This document shows, in pieces, positions 11,614 through 23,737 of a DNA stretch of 64,000 nt. Source of the DNA: Chryseobacterium indologenes. Its GTDB lineage: Bacteria > Bacteroidota > Bacteroidia > Flavobacteriales > Weeksellaceae. Where the stretch lies: NCBI RefSeq assembly GCF_002025665.1, contig NZ_CP018786.1:4092001-4156000 (forward strand), written 5' to 3'. The position numbers and the translations under genes were made by a program. Each line of letters opens with the position of its first letter. Position 1 is the stretch's first letter. The notes beneath the pieces are model-generated. The model had not been told where the DNA came from and ran no database searches. It saw only the letters and a list, made by a program, of their open reading frames with translations.

Positions 11614-12085
11614 TCATATCATCATCAGAAAAGGAATTTACGATGATCTTCCGGTAATGCTGCAGCTGTTTACTGCAACAATAGATGAAGTGTGTAAAAA
11701 AGACTATGATCTTCAACAACTTGAAGCCTGGAAATCCGGTACCGAAAATAGAGAAAGATGGGTGAAAGTCATTACAGAGCAATATGTTTTGGTTGCTGTC
11801 ACGGAGAATAAAATAGCAGGTTTCTGTACGCTCGATCAGGGAAATTATATTGATCTGCTTTTTGTACACAAAGATTTTCAGCACAGAGGAATTGCAACCC
11901 TTCTTTATCAACAAATTGAAAAAGAAGCTTTATTGAAAAAGAAGAAAGAACTTACTGCAGATGTAAGCAAAACAGCCAAATCATTTTTTGAAAAATCAGG
12001 TTTTAAGGTTATCCAGGAGCAGGCTGTCTACGTAAAAGGAGTTGCCATAACCAATTATAAAATGGTAAAAAACCTCATCTATTAA
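11591..12085 (+). CDS. GNAT family N-acetyltransferase
   Basis: The 164-residue protein shows the GNAT core: IIIRKGIYDDLPVMLQLF at the start, LLFVHKDFQHRGIATLLYQQ with the acetyl-CoA loop (HRGIAT, about residues 97-102), and FFEKSGFKVIQE for the last strands. It transfers an acetyl group from acetyl-CoA to an unknown amine. The ATG at 11591 lies inside the end of the TetR gene, and no later start preserves the first strand, so the overlap is probably real. The AraC gene follows after 11 bases; the three likely form one unit. Confidence 0.82.
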   Translation: MNSNTSDNHIIIRKGIYDDLPVMLQLFTATIDEVCKKDYDLQQLEAWKSGTENRERWVKVITEQYVLVAVTENKIAGFCTLDQGNYIDLLFVHKDFQHRGIATLLYQQIEKEALLKKKKELTADVSKTAKSFFEKSGFKVIQEQAVYVKGVAITNYKMVKNLIY

Positions 12086-12096
12086 CTTTCAGGATT

Positions 12097-12915
12097 ATGG
12101 AATTACGTTCAGAATATAACGAGTACAGAATTTCAGTTCCACAGGAATTTGAAAATGTATTTACTCATTTCTATTTTGCTGAAAATACTTCTGAATCCTC
12201 AATGACTAAAACCCTTCTGCCTACTTATCAGACCATTCTCTTATTTTGTTTTGGGGAAAATGCTACCATGTCTACCCGGGAAAAGACCATCATAAATGTA
12301 GATAAATGTATGGTGTTCGGACCAGTGAGACAAGCCTTTGAATATACACTTCCCGCTGGCTGCTCTATCCTGGTTGCTAATTTTAAAGATGATGCGTTTT
12401 TCCGATTTTTTGGAAAAATATCCATTCAACAGTCGGTAAGGCATCCTGATGAATTATTGAAAGATAATTGTTTTACTGACCTTTGGCATCAGCTTACCCG
12501 ATTAGATCCAGTCACAAAACAGGTAGATCACATTCTTGAATTCTGCAAACCTTATTTGCAGGATAGGGATATTACCAGCCAGCTTTTGAGCAGTTTTGAG
12601 AACGATCTTTTAAATCCCGTTAAAGTCATTGCAGAGCAGGCTCAACAGACGGAAAGAAACATACAGCGAAAGCAGAAAGAACAGTTTGGCTATTCTTTAA
12701 AAGAACTTAACCGTTACAACCGCTTTTTAAAAGCAATACAACTCATCGAAAAAGAAACTGAAAAACAAAATCAGGTCAAATGGTTTACCATCATTGATGA
12801 GTGTGGTTATTACGATCAAAGCCAGCTTATCCATGATTTTAAGCATTTTATCAACATTTCACCGTCTCAGTATTTAAAGTTCCAGCAGGAGATCTGCAAC
12901 CCAAAATCGAAATAA
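12097..12915 (+). CDS. AraC family transcriptional regulator
   Basis: The 272-residue protein has an N-terminal sensor half of the DUF6597-like type (cupin-like, residues 1-150) and a C-terminal AraC double helix-turn-helix. The second HTH is clear in ECGYYDQSQLIHDFKHFINI followed by SPSQYLKF (about residues 230-262). The signal is unknown. It lies between a GNAT gene on one side and a quinone oxidoreductase with a palindromic promoter region on the other, and may control one of them. Confidence 0.82.
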   Translation: MELRSEYNEYRISVPQEFENVFTHFYFAENTSESSMTKTLLPTYQTILLFCFGENATMSTREKTIINVDKCMVFGPVRQAFEYTLPAGCSILVANFKDDAFFRFFGKISIQQSVRHPDELLKDNCFTDLWHQLTRLDPVTKQVDHILEFCKPYLQDRDITSQLLSSFENDLLNPVKVIAEQAQQTERNIQRKQKEQFGYSLKELNRYNRFLKAIQLIEKETEKQNQVKWFTIIDECGYYDQSQLIHDFKHFINISPSQYLKFQQEICNPKSK

Positions 12916-12944
12916 TCTGTTTCGTTTTCTTACAATTTTTGAGA

Positions 12945-12964
12945 AGTACGTCGTACTACTTTTG
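12945..12964 (+). promoter_or_regulatory. Palindromic operator joined to a -7 element
   Basis: AGTACG-T-CGTACT (12945-12957) is a perfect 6+1+6 palindrome. Its last base begins TACTTTTG (12957-12964), a TANNTTTG match about 26 bases upstream of the oxidoreductase ATG. A regulator bound there would cover the promoter. GTAC-type palindromes before quinone reductases are often targets of HxlR or MarR redox sensors; none is encoded next to it here. Confidence 0.6.
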
Positions 12965-12990
12965 TCTCATTAATCTTAACAATCAAAACA

Positions 12991-13581
12991 ATGAGACATT
13001 TAATCATTTACGCGCACCCCAATGAAAACAGTTTAAATCATCATCTTTTAAACACTGTTGTGGAAACCCTTCAATCTCACAACGAGGAAATTATCGTGAG
13101 AGATCTTTACAAAATCGGTTTCGATCCTGCTCTTTCTTTGAATGATATGCAGGGACAACGGATGGGAAAAGTATCAGATGATATAAAAACCGAACAGGAT
13201 CATATTTCATGGGCAGAACAGATTACTTTTATTTATCCTATCTGGTGGACAGGCCTTCCCGCTATGATGAAAGGATATATAGACCGTGTTTTTAGTTATG
13301 GTTTTGCTTACCGCTATGATCAGGGTATACAGAAAGGGCTTCTGAAAGATAAAAAAGCTGTTATCATCAACACCCATGGAAAATCTCATGAGGAATATGA
13401 AAAAATGGGAATGGATAAAGCGCTTACCCTAACTTCCGACCATGGCATTTTCATTTATTCCGGACTGGAAATTATCAGACATTTATTTTTTGATAAAGCA
13501 GATAAAGCTTCTCCCGAAGATCTGGAAATCTGGAAAGATCAGATTAAAAATTTATACACTGAACATGTATTTAATTATTAA
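12991..13581 (+). CDS. NAD(P)H-dependent (quinone) oxidoreductase, flavodoxin-like fold
   Basis: The 196-residue protein begins MRHLIIYAHPNENSLNHHLL, the first strand and FMN/FAD-binding loop of the NQO1/KefF/MdaB group. It continues with FIYPIWWTGLPAMMKGYIDRV (about residues 79-99), a conserved signature of this family. These flavoproteins carry out two-electron reduction of quinones and protect against electrophiles. The palindrome covering its promoter suggests induction by quinones or another thiol-reactive signal. Confidence 0.87.
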   Translation: MRHLIIYAHPNENSLNHHLLNTVVETLQSHNEEIIVRDLYKIGFDPALSLNDMQGQRMGKVSDDIKTEQDHISWAEQITFIYPIWWTGLPAMMKGYIDRVFSYGFAYRYDQGIQKGLLKDKKAVIINTHGKSHEEYEKMGMDKALTLTSDHGIFIYSGLEIIRHLFFDKADKASPEDLEIWKDQIKNLYTEHVFNY

Positions 13582-17809: not shown

Positions 17810-19324
17810 TTATAACTGATTGGCCATTGTTACATACATGAGCCTTCCCCCTTCTTCCGCAGACAACAGTATTTTTTTTCCATCAGTGAGCTCTACCATA
17901 GAACCTGGCGGAATCTCTTTCTGTTCTGTGACATCTTTCATTCCGGATAACCCCTGATTCACAAGAACCCATTTCCCTTGATGGAAGGTAAAATATCCTA
18001 CCGGCATTTTATCCTGCATCGTCAGATTTTCATTTCTTATCACTTTTCGGGAAACATGCCATTTGAACAGATACTGATTATGATATACCATTAATCTGTG
18101 ATTTTCCGGCTTCCATACCTCATCATCAAATCTGAAATACAGATCTAATACCGGAAGTGTTCCCTGATGTGGTGTTCCACAGAACGGGCATTTTGGATTG
18201 CTGGTATTATCAAAGACATACCATTTTTCTGTACAGCCGGAATTCTGGCAAGGCTGTATCAGATCTACAGTTTTCAGTAATGCGGTTTCCCATTCATTGG
18301 CCGTGGGACGTCTGATGGGATCATGTAATCCGTCTATGAATGTTTTTCTGAACAATTCCGAAATATAAGGACCTGTAATGGTGTACGGAATCTTTTGAGG
18401 ATCTCCCCAGAATGCATCCCATTTTCTGAGATGATCTGATTTTACATGGTTGGAATTATTTTCCGGATGTTCTACAAACATGGCTTTTTCTCCCATGGAT
18501 AAAATTTCATCCTGTTCAGAATCTAAATCCCAGATTTTTCCTCCACGCAGCGGATGTCTTCTCAGCAGATACATATAAATCAGAACAGCAAGGGCATGTA
18601 GATCTGTTTTTTGATTGGGTAAATGTCTTTCCGGATCCTGAAGCTTCAAATGTTGGGTTTTCAACACTTCGGGTGCAATGAAATCTGCAGTTCCTATAAC
18701 TTCCGGTGGAAAGAGTTTGGGAACCACAAGACCGTCAATATCGATGATACAGGCAGATTTTGTCACAGGATCTACCAGAATATTGTTATAAGACAAATCG
18801 GAGTGAGCCAACCCCATCTGATGGAGCTTTTTCACGCCTCTGCTGATATTAACTGCAATCTGGAAATAGCTCAGCCAATCTCCCAATTCTGACTGATCCA
18901 ATCTCAACGGATATTGCTGATTTCTGAACATGGGAGCGGTAAACCATTTACCCACTTTATCCTGTCCCTGGATGTTATCTGAACCAATATAGCCTTTCGC
19001 AAAATAAAATTTATTGTGATAAACAGGAACTACAATTCCTGTGAGTTTATTTCTTTCAACGATATCATAAGGCCATCTGAATATTTCGTTCAGAAAATAT
19101 TCAGAAGTATTGCCACTCTGTATACTTTGCAGATAAGTAGAAACAATCCTCATGATTCTTTCCTTCTGTCCTTCATCCAGCGGATTTCGGTAGAAAGCGA
19201 CTACATAGTTTTTATCGGGTGAAAAATAAACATCTTTCATTCCGCCTCTGATAGGGTTTTCATCTACATATTCATACGATTTGGCTGTATCCAGAACAGA
19301 AACAACTTTAATGGTCTTTTTCAT
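17810..19324 (-). CDS. Ter-system protein kinase with zinc ribbon
   Basis: The 504-residue protein has a Ser/Thr kinase-like domain (about residues 15-350). The catalytic loop is HSDLSYNN (H174, D176, N181), the metal-binding segment IDIDG (195-198) replaces DFG, and APE is at 217-219. A canonical VAxK lysine is not obvious in VVAFYRN (41-47). C358-x4-C363 and C378-x2-C381 form a zinc ribbon, and a beta-rich C-terminal domain follows. The protein ends a six-gene TerD/TerY/PP2C operon, matching the TerY-P triad (VWA, phosphatase, kinase) known from Ter stress systems. It probably phosphorylates Ter components or their targets. Confidence 0.85.
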   Translation of the reverse strand: MKKTIKVVSVLDTAKSYEYVDENPIRGGMKDVYFSPDKNYVVAFYRNPLDEGQKERIMRIVSTYLQSIQSGNTSEYFLNEIFRWPYDIVERNKLTGIVVPVYHNKFYFAKGYIGSDNIQGQDKVGKWFTAPMFRNQQYPLRLDQSELGDWLSYFQIAVNISRGVKKLHQMGLAHSDLSYNNILVDPVTKSACIIDIDGLVVPKLFPPEVIGTADFIAPEVLKTQHLKLQDPERHLPNQKTDLHALAVLIYMYLLRRHPLRGGKIWDLDSEQDEILSMGEKAMFVEHPENNSNHVKSDHLRKWDAFWGDPQKIPYTITGPYISELFRKTFIDGLHDPIRRPTANEWETALLKTVDLIQPCQNSGCTEKWYVFDNTSNPKCPFCGTPHQGTLPVLDLYFRFDDEVWKPENHRLMVYHNQYLFKWHVSRKVIRNENLTMQDKMPVGYFTFHQGKWVLVNQGLSGMKDVTEQKEIPPGSMVELTDGKKILLSAEEGGRLMYVTMANQL

Positions 19325-19328
19325 GGTA

Positions 19329-20606
19329 TTAATAGATTATGGCCAATGTACGATCATCATGATTTCCTCTGCTCCAGAAATCGCTCCAGATTAAAAGTTC
19401 TTCATCAATTTTTTCATCGTTGATAAAATCGGCTTTCGTCCGGTCATCATTATTTCCGGCAAGATCTTCAAAAAGTGCTTTCCAGCTTTCTGTATCTTCC
19501 AGTTTATTTTCTGTGGTAAATTTAGGATCATAAATACCGTCTGTCATCAGCACGAGATAGGAAAAATCTTCTACACAGGTGATCTGAAAACGGGAAACCA
19601 TTCTATCATTAAAAATTTCTTTCATAGTGATAAATCGTGTACCACCACCAAACTCTCCCACATCCATTCGGTTTAAAAGTTTTACTTCAGAAAAGTCTGT
19701 ATTAATCAGATTGATCGGACAGTCACCCACTCCAAAGCTCAGAATAACATATCCGAAACTGAACTTTTTAAGCAAAATAAAAATAAGTGTAGCGTGCAGA
19801 TCATTCACTGAAAGGGCATTTTCTGCTGCTGTTTTTTCTAATATGTGATGAACATGTGAAACACTTTCCGATAAAATATTGATAATACTCTGTTTCGCTT
19901 CAAGCTGTTCCTGATCAGAAGGCTGAATGGTGTACAGAGTGTTGATCTTATTTTCAATCTGTTTTAAAATTTCCTGTGAGTTGAAAAACTGGTTGATCGT
20001 TGTGGTTGCCAGTCTTGAACCTTCTCTGGCAGCTTTTGCTGAACCTGCTCCATCTGAAACAGAAATAATATTCCAGCCGTCGGGAATCGTATTTACGGCG
20101 AAATCATCTTCACGAAATTTACCTTCATGAGCGTGGGAACGTCCTCTTTTGGAGGCTACAACAATTTTTTTGTCTGAAAAAGAGCCTTTGTATGAATCTT
20201 CTTCCGATTTATAAAAAGCAGCGTTCATATCACTTGGAATATTCTTCCATAAATCTTTGGGATCTGCGTTGACAAGCAGCTGTATTTTCTTAGTTTCAAG
20301 CTGATCCTGATCATAAATGTGATAAAACTGAACATGCAGATGGTACATATTATTTGTTACCGGAGTTCCTGAAATTGTATTGTTTTCAAAAGTAAGTCCT
20401 GTTTCTTCCAGGTTTCCGATATTCTGAATCTTGATGTTGGGAAACTCTTCCATATCGAAACTGAATTCATAGAACTGTTTGACACTAGCATTTTTCAACA
20501 CCCAATGAACGTCTTTGAATTCTTCTTTTTCTTTATAGATAAGAGACTGCGTCATACTTTTTGGTTTGGATTCGTCAGCTGACTTCCTGAAAAACTTACC
20601 CATCAT
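19329..20606 (-). CDS. PP2C family protein phosphatase of the Ter system
   Basis: The 425-residue protein has an N-terminal beta-sandwich (about 45-115) with GLTFENNTISGTPVTNNMY, typical of a putative Ig-like (He_PIG) domain. A PP2C phosphatase domain follows (about 150-425), with the metal-binding REDDFAV (D167, D168) and ISVSDGAGSA (D185, G186), plus LMTDGIYD near residue 340. PP2C enzymes remove phosphate from Ser/Thr with Mn/Mg. Its start codon overlaps the TerY stop (TAATG), and the kinase starts 4 bases after its stop. It most likely reverses the kinase's reactions. Confidence 0.88.
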   Translation of the reverse strand: MMGKFFRKSADESKPKSMTQSLIYKEKEEFKDVHWVLKNASVKQFYEFSFDMEEFPNIKIQNIGNLEETGLTFENNTISGTPVTNNMYHLHVQFYHIYDQDQLETKKIQLLVNADPKDLWKNIPSDMNAAFYKSEEDSYKGSFSDKKIVVASKRGRSHAHEGKFREDDFAVNTIPDGWNIISVSDGAGSAKAAREGSRLATTTINQFFNSQEILKQIENKINTLYTIQPSDQEQLEAKQSIINILSESVSHVHHILEKTAAENALSVNDLHATLIFILLKKFSFGYVILSFGVGDCPINLINTDFSEVKLLNRMDVGEFGGGTRFITMKEIFNDRMVSRFQITCVEDFSYLVLMTDGIYDPKFTTENKLEDTESWKALFEDLAGNNDDRTKADFINDEKIDEELLIWSDFWSRGNHDDRTLAIIY

Positions 20607-21649
20607 TAGCCCAGAGTTCTGTTAATATCAAACCCTCCACCGGAAAATCCGTAATAATCGGAAGTTCCACACCATGGACATTTACTGTATCCTTCTCCCC
20701 TCAGGCAGTGAATACCTCCGCACGAGCAGGTAGCTAATGCAATGGGATTGGCACAGTGAGGGCATGAAGTTCCGCCATCCAGTTCTTCGATATTGATTTT
20801 AAGATGAGTTTTCTGATTGGAAGAAAGTCTGTAGTAAGCCTTTTCATCAATTTTATAAGCCCCGTCCAATCTGTAATATCTTGTAGCCATTCCCGGTATG
20901 CTGGATTCTGCAAATGCTTTTTTAAATTTCATCAGATAAAGCTTTTCCGTTTCCTGACATTTTCCGTTCAGTACAACAAAGTTATTATCCGGAAATCTCT
21001 GTTCCATCTCTGGATCTACTTTCTCCAGAATAAGAGAATCAATTTTGGATAGATTAATTCCTTCTTTTTTTGCTTCTGTTACGCTCTGACTGGTAGTTTT
21101 AATAGAATCCGTTACCCATTTGAAAAACTCTTTGTAAGAATTCTCATCAGAATTATTGAACAGTAAAACATTGTCTGCCAAAGAACCGAGAAGTTTATAA
21201 TTGGTATTTTCTCCGATAGAAACGGCAATAGTGTTAGATTTTCCGTTGTATTTGGTAGTCCATCTTTCAATGGCTTTGGTGGCATCATCCGTGGGAACTC
21301 CGTCTGTAAAAAGGAAGACGATAGGTTTCCAGTCGCCTTTTCTTTCATACGTTGTTTTTACAATATCCCTGTCGATACAATCCATCACTTTAATTAATCC
21401 CTGAGAAAGTGATGTCCCGCTTCCAATAGGAATTTTAGGTGGATAAAAACTGATAATATCCTGCATCGGAGTAATCACTTCAGCTTCTCCTGCAAAACCT
21501 ATCACAGAAATGTAAACGGTTTCAAGTGAATAAGGATCTTTTTTTAATTCCCTGATGATATTGGCGATACCTTCCTGTACCTGCTCAATAGGCTCTCCTA
21601 CCATAGATTCGGAGATATCTACTAAAAAATAAATAGGCAGTCTTCTCAT
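20606..21649 (-). CDS. TerY-like VWA protein with C-terminal zinc ribbon
   Basis: The 347-residue protein carries a von Willebrand A domain. Its metal-ion-dependent adhesion site is DISES (D11, S13, S15), with SGTSL around residue 78 and FTDGVPTDD around 113. The C-terminus has two CxxC-type pairs (CPHC, CPWC) and CSCGGIHC, a double zinc ribbon. VWA domains bind partner proteins through a divalent metal; TerY with such ribbons is known beside PP2C and kinase genes. The stop overlaps the next start, so the three are translationally coupled. Confidence 0.87.
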   Translation of the reverse strand: MRRLPIYFLVDISESMVGEPIEQVQEGIANIIRELKKDPYSLETVYISVIGFAGEAEVITPMQDIISFYPPKIPIGSGTSLSQGLIKVMDCIDRDIVKTTYERKGDWKPIVFLFTDGVPTDDATKAIERWTTKYNGKSNTIAVSIGENTNYKLLGSLADNVLLFNNSDENSYKEFFKWVTDSIKTTSQSVTEAKKEGINLSKIDSLILEKVDPEMEQRFPDNNFVVLNGKCQETEKLYLMKFKKAFAESSIPGMATRYYRLDGAYKIDEKAYYRLSSNQKTHLKINIEELDGGTSCPHCANPIALATCSCGGIHCLRGEGYSKCPWCGTSDYYGFSGGGFDINRTLG

Positions 21650-21666
21650 GGTGTAAAGACAATTTT

Positions 21667-22305
21667 TTAAATAATAATATTAAGCTCTGATGGTGGCGGA
21701 GGTAATGTGATATTTTCTCCCGTATTCTGTGATTGTCCTCCCTGAGTAATGGAAGAACTCACCCATTTGAAAAAAGAAGAAAGGGTAATGGCATCTGTAG
21801 TATCCAGTTTTACTACATGATCGGTCAGTTCTTTCAAAAACTGTTCATCCGCTTTCGGTCCTGCCGCACATCCTACGATGGCACCAAATTCCAGTCCTCT
21901 GATTACAGGGATCATCTGCCTGTACTTCTGAATATCTGACGGTTTTCCATCTGTAAATATAAACAGTAACGGCTGCCAGTCTCCTTTTGCATCTGCCGAT
22001 TCTTTCACAATTTCCCTCTGAACCAGTTCAGAAACCATTTCCAAAGCAGCTCCTGTATGCGTTGGGCCACTATCCGGACAAGTAATCTCCATTGGATAAA
22101 AACTTGCCAGATCTGTTAAGGGTATAATATTCTTAACATCTCTATCAAAGGTAATGACACTTAAATGCAAGCTGTCCATCGCCTGCGGATCCGCACGAAG
22201 CATACTGATGAGGCCATTGAAACCATTGTTCAGTGCCTGAATAGGTTCTCCGTTCATAGACCCCGAAGTATCTAATAAAAAATAAGCTAATAATCTCCTG
22301 CTCAT
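21667..22305 (-). CDS. TerY-like VWA protein
   Basis: The frame opens at a TTG (22314), but the ATG at 22305 matches the neighbouring TerY start and is preferred, giving 212 residues. The VWA domain has a complete MIDAS: DTSGS near residue 12, TGAAL near 75 and FTDGKPSD near 112. It has no zinc ribbon, unlike the next gene. TerY proteins link TerD-type Ca-binding proteins to the phosphorylation module. It is the third gene of the operon, 17 bases before the second TerY. Confidence 0.87.
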   Translation of the reverse strand: MSRRLLAYFLLDTSGSMNGEPIQALNNGFNGLISMLRADPQAMDSLHLSVITFDRDVKNIIPLTDLASFYPMEITCPDSGPTHTGAALEMVSELVQREIVKESADAKGDWQPLLFIFTDGKPSDIQKYRQMIPVIRGLEFGAIVGCAAGPKADEQFLKELTDHVVKLDTTDAITLSSFFKWVSSSITQGGQSQNTGENITLPPPPSELNIII

Positions 22306-22391
22306 TATAGACAAGTATTAATTCTGAAGCCGGTGAAGGGAGTCGGAGACTTCCTAGCCGGCTTTTATGTGAGTTGAAAAAAATTGAAAAT

Positions 22392-23069
22392 CTAGTTGGA
22401 ATAAGCGTATTGCTGTCTCAGAATATCAATAAAATTATCTGTATTATGCGGTTCTCCCACAGCACGGAATTTCCAATCACCATTATGACGGTATGCTTCT
22501 GCAAAAACCATTGCACATTTACCATTCATACTTGAGTCACCGGAAAGGCTGTATTTTGTTATTTCTTTTCCTGAAGCATCTACTGCACGGATAAATGCAT
22601 TTTCGATCATTCCGAAGTGCTGATTATTAGTTCTTCCCTGATAAATGGTAACAATGAACACAATCTTCTGATAGCTTTGATCCAGCTGATCCAGTCTTAC
22701 AATAATCTGCTCATCATCTCCATCACCTGCTCCGGTTCTATTATCTCCTGTAAGCCATACATTTCCGCTTGGATGCTGCATAGAATTGAAGAAAACCACA
22801 TCTCCCTGGTAAAGCCCCATCTGTCTTCCGTCATTGGTCTGTACCGTTCTTCCAAGATTAGCTACTTTTCCGTTGCCATCTAAAAGAAATGCTACTGCAT
22901 CAAGATCATATTCTGCTTCCTTGCTGAACAGTTTACCGAAGAATCCGCTGCTTTGTTTTCTTACATCCCATCCTAAACCGATGGTTACTTTTGAAAGATC
23001 ATAAACGCTTTCTCCGCGGTCATTCTTTCTTAAATCTATCGTTTGTCCTTTCTGTAAATTAATTGCCAT
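22392..23069 (-). CDS. TerD family protein
   Basis: The 225-residue protein is a TerD domain, with GLGWDVRK near residue 31, YDLDAVAFLLDGNGKV (about 53-68) and the Ca-binding segment TGDNRTGAGDGDDEQI (about 106-121). The TerD fold is a beta-sandwich that binds two calcium ions and works in tellurite, phage and envelope-stress resistance. It has a longer middle loop than the next gene. Signal peptide and membrane segments are absent, so it is cytoplasmic. Confidence 0.93.
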   Translation of the reverse strand: MAINLQKGQTIDLRKNDRGESVYDLSKVTIGLGWDVRKQSSGFFGKLFSKEAEYDLDAVAFLLDGNGKVANLGRTVQTNDGRQMGLYQGDVVFFNSMQHPSGNVWLTGDNRTGAGDGDDEQIIVRLDQLDQSYQKIVFIVTIYQGRTNNQHFGMIENAFIRAVDASGKEITKYSLSGDSSMNGKCAMVFAEAYRHNGDWKFRAVGEPHNTDNFIDILRQQYAYSN

Positions 23070-23096
23070 AGTTATAGTTTTTGTGTATTTGATGAT

Positions 23097-23672
23097 TTAT
23101 TTGATGATTTGTCCTTTGTAGTATTTTTCGAGGAAGAAGCCTAAATCTGCTCTGTATCCTATTCCTGAAGCTTCAAATTTCCAGCTTCCGTTTCTTTTGT
23201 ACAGTCTTCCGAATTCTACTCCGGTTTCAATAGAGAAATCTTCATCCAGTTCATATTTTGCAATCTCCTGGTTGGAATGATTGTCTACCACTCTGATATA
23301 AGAGTTTCGTACCTGTCCGAAATTCTGTCTTCTTCTTTCAAAATCTTCAATCGTTACCACGAAAAGAATCTCTTCCACTCTTGAGTCTACTTTATCAAGA
23401 TCTATAATAATAGCTTCATCATCGTCACCATCACTGTTTTTACCACTCGGGTCATCTCCTGTGTGGGTAAGAGCTCCATCCGGAGAATTCAGGTTATTGT
23501 AAAAAACAAAGTATTCTTCACTTACTAATTTTCTGTCAGAATCAATCATGATTGCAGAAGCATCCAGGTCAAAGTCGTAGCCGGTTCCTTCATTCGGATC
23601 CCAACCTAATCCAATCGTCATTTTCGTCAATCCTATCTCGATCTTTTGTCCTTTCTGTAGATTAATTGCCAT
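23097..23672 (-). CDS. TerD family protein
   Basis: The 191-residue TerD protein begins MAINLQKGQKIEIGLTKMTI. It has GLGWDPNEGTGYDFDLDASA (residues 23-42) and the Ca-binding loop THTGDDPSGKNSDGDDDEAI (about residues 74-93). It is the first gene of the operon; 27 bases separate it from the second TerD. Two TerD paralogues of different length side by side are common in Ter loci. No TerC or TerB gene lies in the window. Confidence 0.94.
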   Translation of the reverse strand: MAINLQKGQKIEIGLTKMTIGLGWDPNEGTGYDFDLDASAIMIDSDRKLVSEEYFVFYNNLNSPDGALTHTGDDPSGKNSDGDDDEAIIIDLDKVDSRVEEILFVVTIEDFERRRQNFGQVRNSYIRVVDNHSNQEIAKYELDEDFSIETGVEFGRLYKRNGSWKFEASGIGYRADLGFFLEKYYKGQIIK

Positions 23673-23729: not shown

Positions 23730-23737
23730 CAAATTTA
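23730..23737 (-). promoter_or_regulatory. Putative -7 element of the Ter operon
   Basis: The reverse strand reads TAAATTTG (TANNTTTG), 57 bases upstream of the first TerD start. No other promoter-like element lies closer, and the inter-gene gaps in the operon are short. Confidence 0.45.

Follow-up and report, generated by a model that had tools for sequence, protein, structure and literature searches.

A TerY-P-type operon of Chryseobacterium indologenes and the apparently moved lysine of its kinase

Described relatives of the operon

The theme of linked genes for a kinase, a PP2C phosphatase and a VWA protein has been remarked on before (PMC7159879, in excerpt), and such TerY-P triads have been hypothesized to act as phospho-switches that sense metals and, where the kinase has an OB-fold, described as antiphage (excerpts of PMC11090510; see also PMC10889362 and PMC7699616). 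Here we analyze a locus of this type in a 64,000-nucleotide (nt) stretch of Chryseobacterium indologenes DNA (contig NZ_CP018786.1; the window), part of a genome that is a single 5.31 Mb contig. Six open reading frames (ORFs) on its minus strand at positions 17810-23672 encode, in this order, TerD1, TerD2, a VWA protein, a TerY protein with a TerY_C domain (below, TerY_C), a PP2C phosphatase and a kinase. We consider it likely, if short of certain, that this operon serves a Ter system for metal/tellurite stress as its TerY-P phospho-switch arm and that in most of the genus it is encoded apart from the core of that system. The operon arranges a known module in a new way and does not amount to a new system; the newly noted point is what appears from aligned sequences to be a swapped lysine in its kinase.

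The six-gene operon that the first-pass annotation had placed at these positions was confirmed by the ORFs, by the Pfam families found in hidden Markov model searches and by the close spacing of the genes: 27 nt separate TerD1 from TerD2, 77 nt TerD2 from the VWA ORF, 17 nt the VWA and TerY_C genes and 4 nt the PP2C and kinase genes, and the TerY_C and PP2C genes overlap by TAATG. Comparison of gene neighbourhoods showed that the operon is kept together in relatives. The annotation's proposal of a TerY-P-type Ser/Thr phospho-switch is supported by the triad itself, a TerY-like VWA protein, a PP2C phosphatase and a Ser/Thr kinase encoded together; the kinase has the C-terminal zinc ribbon by which TerY-P triads are recognized, and the genome encodes the TerD proteins plus TelA and TerC by which Ter systems are recognized.

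The kinase has many plasmid relatives. A tblastn search with it matched 2358 plasmid records, mostly from Klebsiella, Escherichia, Enterobacter and Salmonella, and near-full-length enteric kinases among the matches listed are 50-52% identical to it. On pNDM-CIT (IncHI1A replicon) the gene order is VWA - TerD - VWA - TerY_C - PP2C - kinase, so that the two loci agree from TerD through VWA, TerY_C and PP2C to the kinase, and the pNDM-CIT kinase carries the swapped lysine too. Unlike the window, pNDM-CIT has the extra VWA gene before TerD, with terZ, ATP-grasp, PRTase and other genes close by, whereas the core genes of the window genome lie 3.3 Mb off and are different in kind. An Aromatoleum plasmid has the pNDM-CIT-type order and, after it, a small gene, TerC and TerB. 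The TerY-P loci of the CoCoNuT type resemble the operon in that VWA, PP2C and kinase genes form one operon (PMC11090510, in excerpt) and in the zinc ribbon, but their kinases retain the third loop glycine and the beta-3 lysine, and an AAA-domain protein, not TerC, follows in six of the eight annotated CoCoNuT-like loci (the other two are without it).

The lysine of the kinase

The kinase (504 amino acids (aa), positions 17810..19324, minus strand) is made up of a kinase domain, a zinc ribbon and a C-terminal beta-rich part that is modelled as strands, and its Pfam Pkinase match (7.5e-11) is confined to residues 155-290. The first-pass annotation's remark that it lacks a clear VAxK lysine and has DID in place of DFG proved correct both in the sequence and in the alignment of its relatives, which have D-I/L/V-D; the lysine of HRDLK is likewise replaced, by Ser (HSDLS). 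Kinase alignments place Ala43 (codon 19196..19198, minus strand) at the position of the beta-3 (VAxK) lysine and Lys30 (codon 19235..19237, minus strand) at that of the third glycine in the glycine-rich loop. In our alignment of Ter-type kinases, 95 rows with 89 distinct sequences, Lys30 is present in every row and position 43 holds Ala in 94 rows and Gly in the remaining one; D176, N181, D195 and D197 are invariant, and the zinc-ribbon cysteines C359, C364, C379 and C382 are kept throughout. Most of these rows were collected by scanning with the seeds GG[MV]KDVYF or ELG[DN]WLSY, which favour Lys30, but Lys30 is also present in all of the kinases found without seeds, namely 15 rows (window included) and loci L122, L123, L124 and L148. 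ORFs of 440 aa or less and the frameshifted L124 were excluded from the 95 rows, and L041/L101 is cut short. The L124 kinase gene (12001-13492 of that locus) is on a Hymenobacter plasmid beside annotated VWA and PP2C genes.

The opposite arrangement is found in 16 kinases from other loci (cyanobacteria, Deinococcus, proteobacteria, Bacteroidota and one phage record), all of which have Gly at position 30 and 15 of which have Lys at position 43; the sixteenth, from Methylomonas, has a Lys two residues further on. Eight of these loci have annotated VWA and PP2C neighbours. In the phage record (MT835511) a VWA-like and a PP2C-like ORF were identified by eye near the lysine-bearing kinase, in L149-L153 a PP2C-like ORF, also judged by eye, adjoins the kinase, L126 has an annotated VWA gene and no gene called PP2C within view, and L133 carries no annotation. 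The 13 residues between Lys30 and Ala43 are matched by the Gly-to-Lys spacing in eight of the 16, the rest having 14-15, and when the lysine-bearing type is aligned with calcium-dependent protein kinases from the PDB, its two positions fall on their third Gly and VAxK Lys.

The absent VAxK lysine and the loop Lys30 are, as the aligned columns suggest, two sides of one swap. Plain loss of the lysine was considered, is disfavoured by the reversal of Gly and Lys in the 16 other-locus kinases, and appears less likely than a move. A tree of the C-lobe only, from which both swap sites were excluded, split 23 swapped rows from the 16 others with support of 98/99, and in 96% of 200 bootstrap trees, with a warning from the tool about long branches; because it groups the swapped kinases once, a single origin of the swap is enough. 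Profile-profile comparison of the two kinase types gave an E-value of 6E-38 over residues 155-390, which is the C-lobe and ribbon only, so the register of the N-lobe is a matter of sequence: the MAFFT alignment, the 13-residue spacing shared with half of the other-locus kinases, and the way in which the lysine-bearing type aligns with PDB kinases.

How could a kinase without its beta-3 lysine work? We infer that it is active, with Lys30 standing in for the missing residue as in WNK kinases. In PDB chains of WNK1 and WNK3 the third loop glycine is replaced by Lys (GRGSFKTVY; in WNK1 chains GRGSFKTVY...EVAWC), and by alignment of these columns the Ter-type kinase has the same combination, a lysine at the third loop glycine and none at beta-3. 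The two differ in that 17 residues lie between the positions in WNK1 and 13 in the Ter-type kinase, in that the WNK residue at beta-3 is presumably Cys rather than Ala, and in that the Ter-type kinase is a bacterial triad protein with a zinc ribbon. In WNK1 a beta-2 lysine replaces the usual one in an active enzyme, and its unusual place has been proposed to allow halide binding (PMC4718504, in excerpt). Among the 27 distinct PDB sequences that a profile search listed, none is named WNK. No bacterial WNK-like kinase was found in the literature searched; the parts of a Legionella kinome paper available to us name no WNK and describe one kinase with Arg in place of the lysine (PMC9758233). Nor did that literature yield a moved lysine in Ter kinases, although Anantharaman 2012 and Gao 2020 are known to us through papers that cite them and an earlier remark is possible.

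The strongest alternative is that the protein is a pseudokinase in which Ala at beta-3 marks the loss of catalysis and Lys30 is structural, so that it would serve as a scaffold or nucleotide sensor. The absence of the beta-3 lysine from all 95 rows and the Ser in HSDLS speak for it, as does the AlphaFold2 model, whose mean predicted local distance difference test score (pLDDT) is 64.8 and falls below 50 in the active site. The first-pass annotation had proposed structure prediction as a check for a catalytic lysine; the kinase was modelled, but the model is too poor for active-site geometry and the lysine's placement is not shown by it (the 50 Foldseek matches listed for it are kinases, and we claim no geometry from that). 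We nevertheless think a pseudokinase unlikely. The catalytic Asp, the Asn and both Asp of DxD are the invariant residues listed above; Lys30 is invariant in the third-Gly column at the very distance from Ala43 that separates Gly and Lys in eight of the 16 others; and the neighbouring PP2C is retained with its invariant aspartates. Because most of the lysine-bearing relatives also have Ser in HRDLK and DxD for DFG, these two changes are not signs of decay.

A bolder idea, which we regard as doubtful, is that bacteria arrived independently at the WNK design in the Ter-type TerY-P kinases, where one event moved the catalytic lysine, the vacated pocket binds an anion (a halide, or an oxyanion such as tellurite) and the kinase is the Ter sensor. 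The signal that the Ter system senses is a long-standing question. If the relocated lysine works, the single residue K30 would give access to the entire pathway, whether plasmid-borne or chromosomal, and the eukaryotic WNKs would gain a convergent bacterial counterpart.

The core Ter locus and the role of the operon

The first-pass annotation had also reported that no TerC, TerB or helicase gene adjoins the operon. This is right for the surrounding ORFs (no search of the whole genome for TerB was made), but TerC lies with TelA elsewhere in the genome. Two further TerD genes are present at ~766-770 kb, 3.3 Mb along the contig from the operon, in a core cluster that reads, by Pfam, HAD - PRTase - TerD - TelA - 315-aa protein - TerD - TerC. 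The 315-aa protein (L005 10115-11062, plus strand) has no Pfam match and is conserved, at 37-42% identity in eight, in clusters where operon and core are joined. Such joint clusters are found in four genomes from other genera of the family (L026-L029) and in four from another family of the order (L035-L038), and their order is TerD1, HAD, PRTase, TerD, TelA, 315-aa protein, TerD genes, VWA genes, TerY_C, PP2C, kinase and TerC, with slight variations from one to another (in L038 TerD1 falls outside the stretch fetched).

Of 401 kinase loci found, 80 named ones were kept, and the nearest of these are from Chryseobacterium; some of the loci used in this work represent a single genome that was fetched twice (e.g., L033 and L046). 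TerC directly follows the kinase in 22 of the 80, TelA is inside the flank in 12, and the panD-site form that lacks TerC accounts for 52. Operon and core are encoded apart in most of the window's genus, and in one of its genomes (G549) kinase and TelA are near each other on one contig, so the genus has both forms.

As a marker of dependence on the core, TerC was tried and is uninformative; since TerC-family proteins are present in 118 of 118 family genomes, TelA was used instead. Among 148 genomes of the genus 86 have the kinase and 138 have TelA: 84 have both, two the kinase alone, 54 TelA alone and eight neither. TelA is thus present in 84 of 86 kinase-bearing genomes vs 54 of the 62 others (p 0.017 in a Fisher test that takes no account of phylogeny). 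In one of the two exceptions, G595, deletions broke both halves; most of TerD1/TerD2, PP2C and the core are gone, and the kinase and most of TerC are retained. The other, G532, has the operon intact, and TelA, the core TerD and the ter-type TerC were not found in its genome; a gene that flanks the core in other genomes is absent as well, its best match having 48% identity, so an assembly gap and a true loss are indistinguishable there.

If the operon is the phospho-switch arm of this system, kinase and PP2C would adjust how far Ter proteins (TerD, TelA or the VWA proteins) are phosphorylated in response to metal or oxyanion stress, the VWA proteins might act as a scaffold that holds the complex together through their metal sites, the zinc ribbons and TerD proteins would report the metal state, and the TelA/TerC arm would be the output. 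A cation transporter as output would be in keeping with the Na/Ca exchanger that replaces TerC in G421 (L039 5142-6290, minus strand), where its gene directly follows the kinase in TerC's usual place. In Clostridioides difficile, excerpts of PMC9674922 report that kinase mutants are more tellurite-sensitive and that three likely tellurite-resistance proteins are phosphorylation targets of Ser/Thr kinases. For Escherichia coli, the authors of PMC11003894 (in excerpt) conclude that fuller ter clusters protect better against tellurite, although one viability pair runs opposite.

Several observations weigh against such a role. Shared ancestry is not taken into account in the co-occurrence test, and most genomes of the genus have TelA in any case. 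G532 has the operon with the core not found. In G421 neither TelA nor TerC adjoins the triad and no ter-type TerC was found in the genome, in which TelA was not searched for. Finally, the C. difficile phosphatase mutant (stp) is without a change in tellurite sensitivity in the parts of PMC9674922 available to us.

Could the operon instead be a phage-defence TerY-P system? TerY-P triads protect against phage, with an OB-fold kinase in stand-alone systems (excerpts of PMC11090510, PMC10889362 and PMC7699616), and ter genes confer phage resistance according to citations in PMC11003894 (in excerpt). The distribution is patchy as well: TerY_C was found in 11 of 118 family genomes (TerD in 20, among them every TerY_C genome) and in 10 of 392 genomes of a phylum sample, all within one order, and there are scars of loss. 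At the panD site TerD1 is solitary in G016, G080 and G102 and accompanied by the first part of TerD2, a stub, in G106, a state that is likely the scar left when the remaining operon was lost. We find defence improbable all the same. A PADLOC search at 0.01 gave no TerY-P match for any of the six proteins, in a library that was not checked for holding TerY-P models, and the nine PADLOC models that the kinase did match (3.5e-06 to 0.0019), all within residues 143-263, are taken as general kinase likeness. The operon occupies a fixed spot beside panD in the 52 loci above and has its link to TelA and TerC, and the eight annotated VWA-PP2C-kinase loci, whose defence status is inferred from their likeness to CoCoNuT loci, have lysine-bearing kinases. 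Two scans of viral_contigs found no viral homologues.

The first-pass annotation's own reading, a minimal, self-contained Ter switch, is very improbable and we reject it: core genes do not adjoin the operon at the panD site in those 52 loci, and G532 keeps it with TelA and ter-type TerC not found, but the core is present in the window's genome, TelA accompanies all except two of the kinase-bearing genomes in the genus (one of these two, G595, decayed, having lost both halves together), and other genera carry the joint cluster. The short operon with its arms separated in this genus warns how easily such a locus is misread as a minimal system.

Remaining features of the operon

TerD1 (191 aa, 23097..23672, minus strand; Pfam TerD 1.2e-67), the operon's first gene, is followed by TerD2 (225 aa, 22392..23069, minus strand; Pfam TerD 1e-56), which is terX-like and corresponds in position to the TerD gene that precedes VWA and TerY_C on pNDM-CIT. 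The next gene, for a TerY-like VWA protein without zinc ribbon (21667..22314, minus strand; Pfam VWA 8.5e-12), opens as an ORF with TTG at 22314 and more probably starts at the in-frame ATG at 22305; the residues of a metal-ion-dependent adhesion site (DxSxS, T and D) were spotted by eye in its sequence. The TerY protein with its TerY_C zinc-ribbon domain (347 aa, 20606..21649, minus strand) has Pfam matches to VWA (2.3e-12) and TerY_C (1.2e-37). About 57 nt before TerD1, TAAATTTG (23730..23737, minus strand) is a weak candidate for a -7 box, found as a sequence pattern; the Bacteroidota-type consensus pattern TAnnTTTG is present 82 times on both strands of the window.

The PP2C phosphatase (425 aa, 19329..20606, minus strand; Pfam PP2C_2 7.7e-31) gave a good AlphaFold2 model (pLDDT 89.3), residues 144-425 of which match PP2C folds, best 6iht_A (Z 21.7, 221 residues aligned, root-mean-square deviation 2.9); with VIA-align, over model residues 113-425, the 50 matches listed are all PP2C phosphatases. 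D167, D185, D356, D417 and D418 are invariant in 29 sequences. The N-terminal domain had been called Ig-like in the first-pass annotation. The model does contain a beta-sandwich at about residues 40-114 (block pLDDT 81-95), but Pfam assigns no Ig domain to the window protein; He_PIG was matched in just one of the 29 sequences, with an E-value of 0.21.

Between TerD2 and the VWA gene, folding and covariation indicate an RNA hairpin (22327..22364, minus strand) with a minimum free energy of -18.1 kcal/mol (z -4.45; none of 200 shuffles equal). Its sequence occurs once in the genome at up to three mismatches, and the reversed control does not occur. The corresponding region was extracted from 46 of the 52 panD-site loci (L084, L086, L087, L090, L091 and L092 were omitted) and folds below -15 kcal/mol in all 46; the hairpins of L085, L088 and L089 are of unrelated sequence. 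These three and the near-copies L043, L054, L064, L065 and L079 were dropped from the alignment, which left 38 loci and the window. In these 39 hairpins 96.4% of cells pair; the structure counted was taken from a single member of the alignment, which favours it in this count. Both partners change in five pairs, a number reached in 1 of 500 shuffles. The covariation score of 0.145, compared with 0.075 for shuffled alignments, was reached in none of the 500, and in further pair types the alignment does not rise above them (371 of 500). Loci with two VWA genes after TerD2 have no such hairpin in the gap, which measures 0-7 nt or is an overlap in L084, L091, L092, L096, L097 and L102 and measures 28 nt in L109; the hairpin therefore stands in loci without the extra VWA gene. 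A single sub-threshold Rfam match on the other strand was judged to be chance. Our guess is that the hairpin might set TerD expression apart from that of the kinase and phosphatase genes.

Some relatives carry additional genes. An extra ORF of 153-329 aa lies between PP2C and kinase in L085-L088 and L090 (that of L087 is presumably of AlbA_2 type, judging by its sequence), and in L090 a 401-aa ORF, ankyrin-like by eye, lies between TerD2 and the VWA gene. Two kinase copies are present in Chryseobacterium sp. ON_d1 (loci L109 and L052), as well as in genomes G514 and G575, and in L109, G514 and G575 the second copy is followed by TerC.

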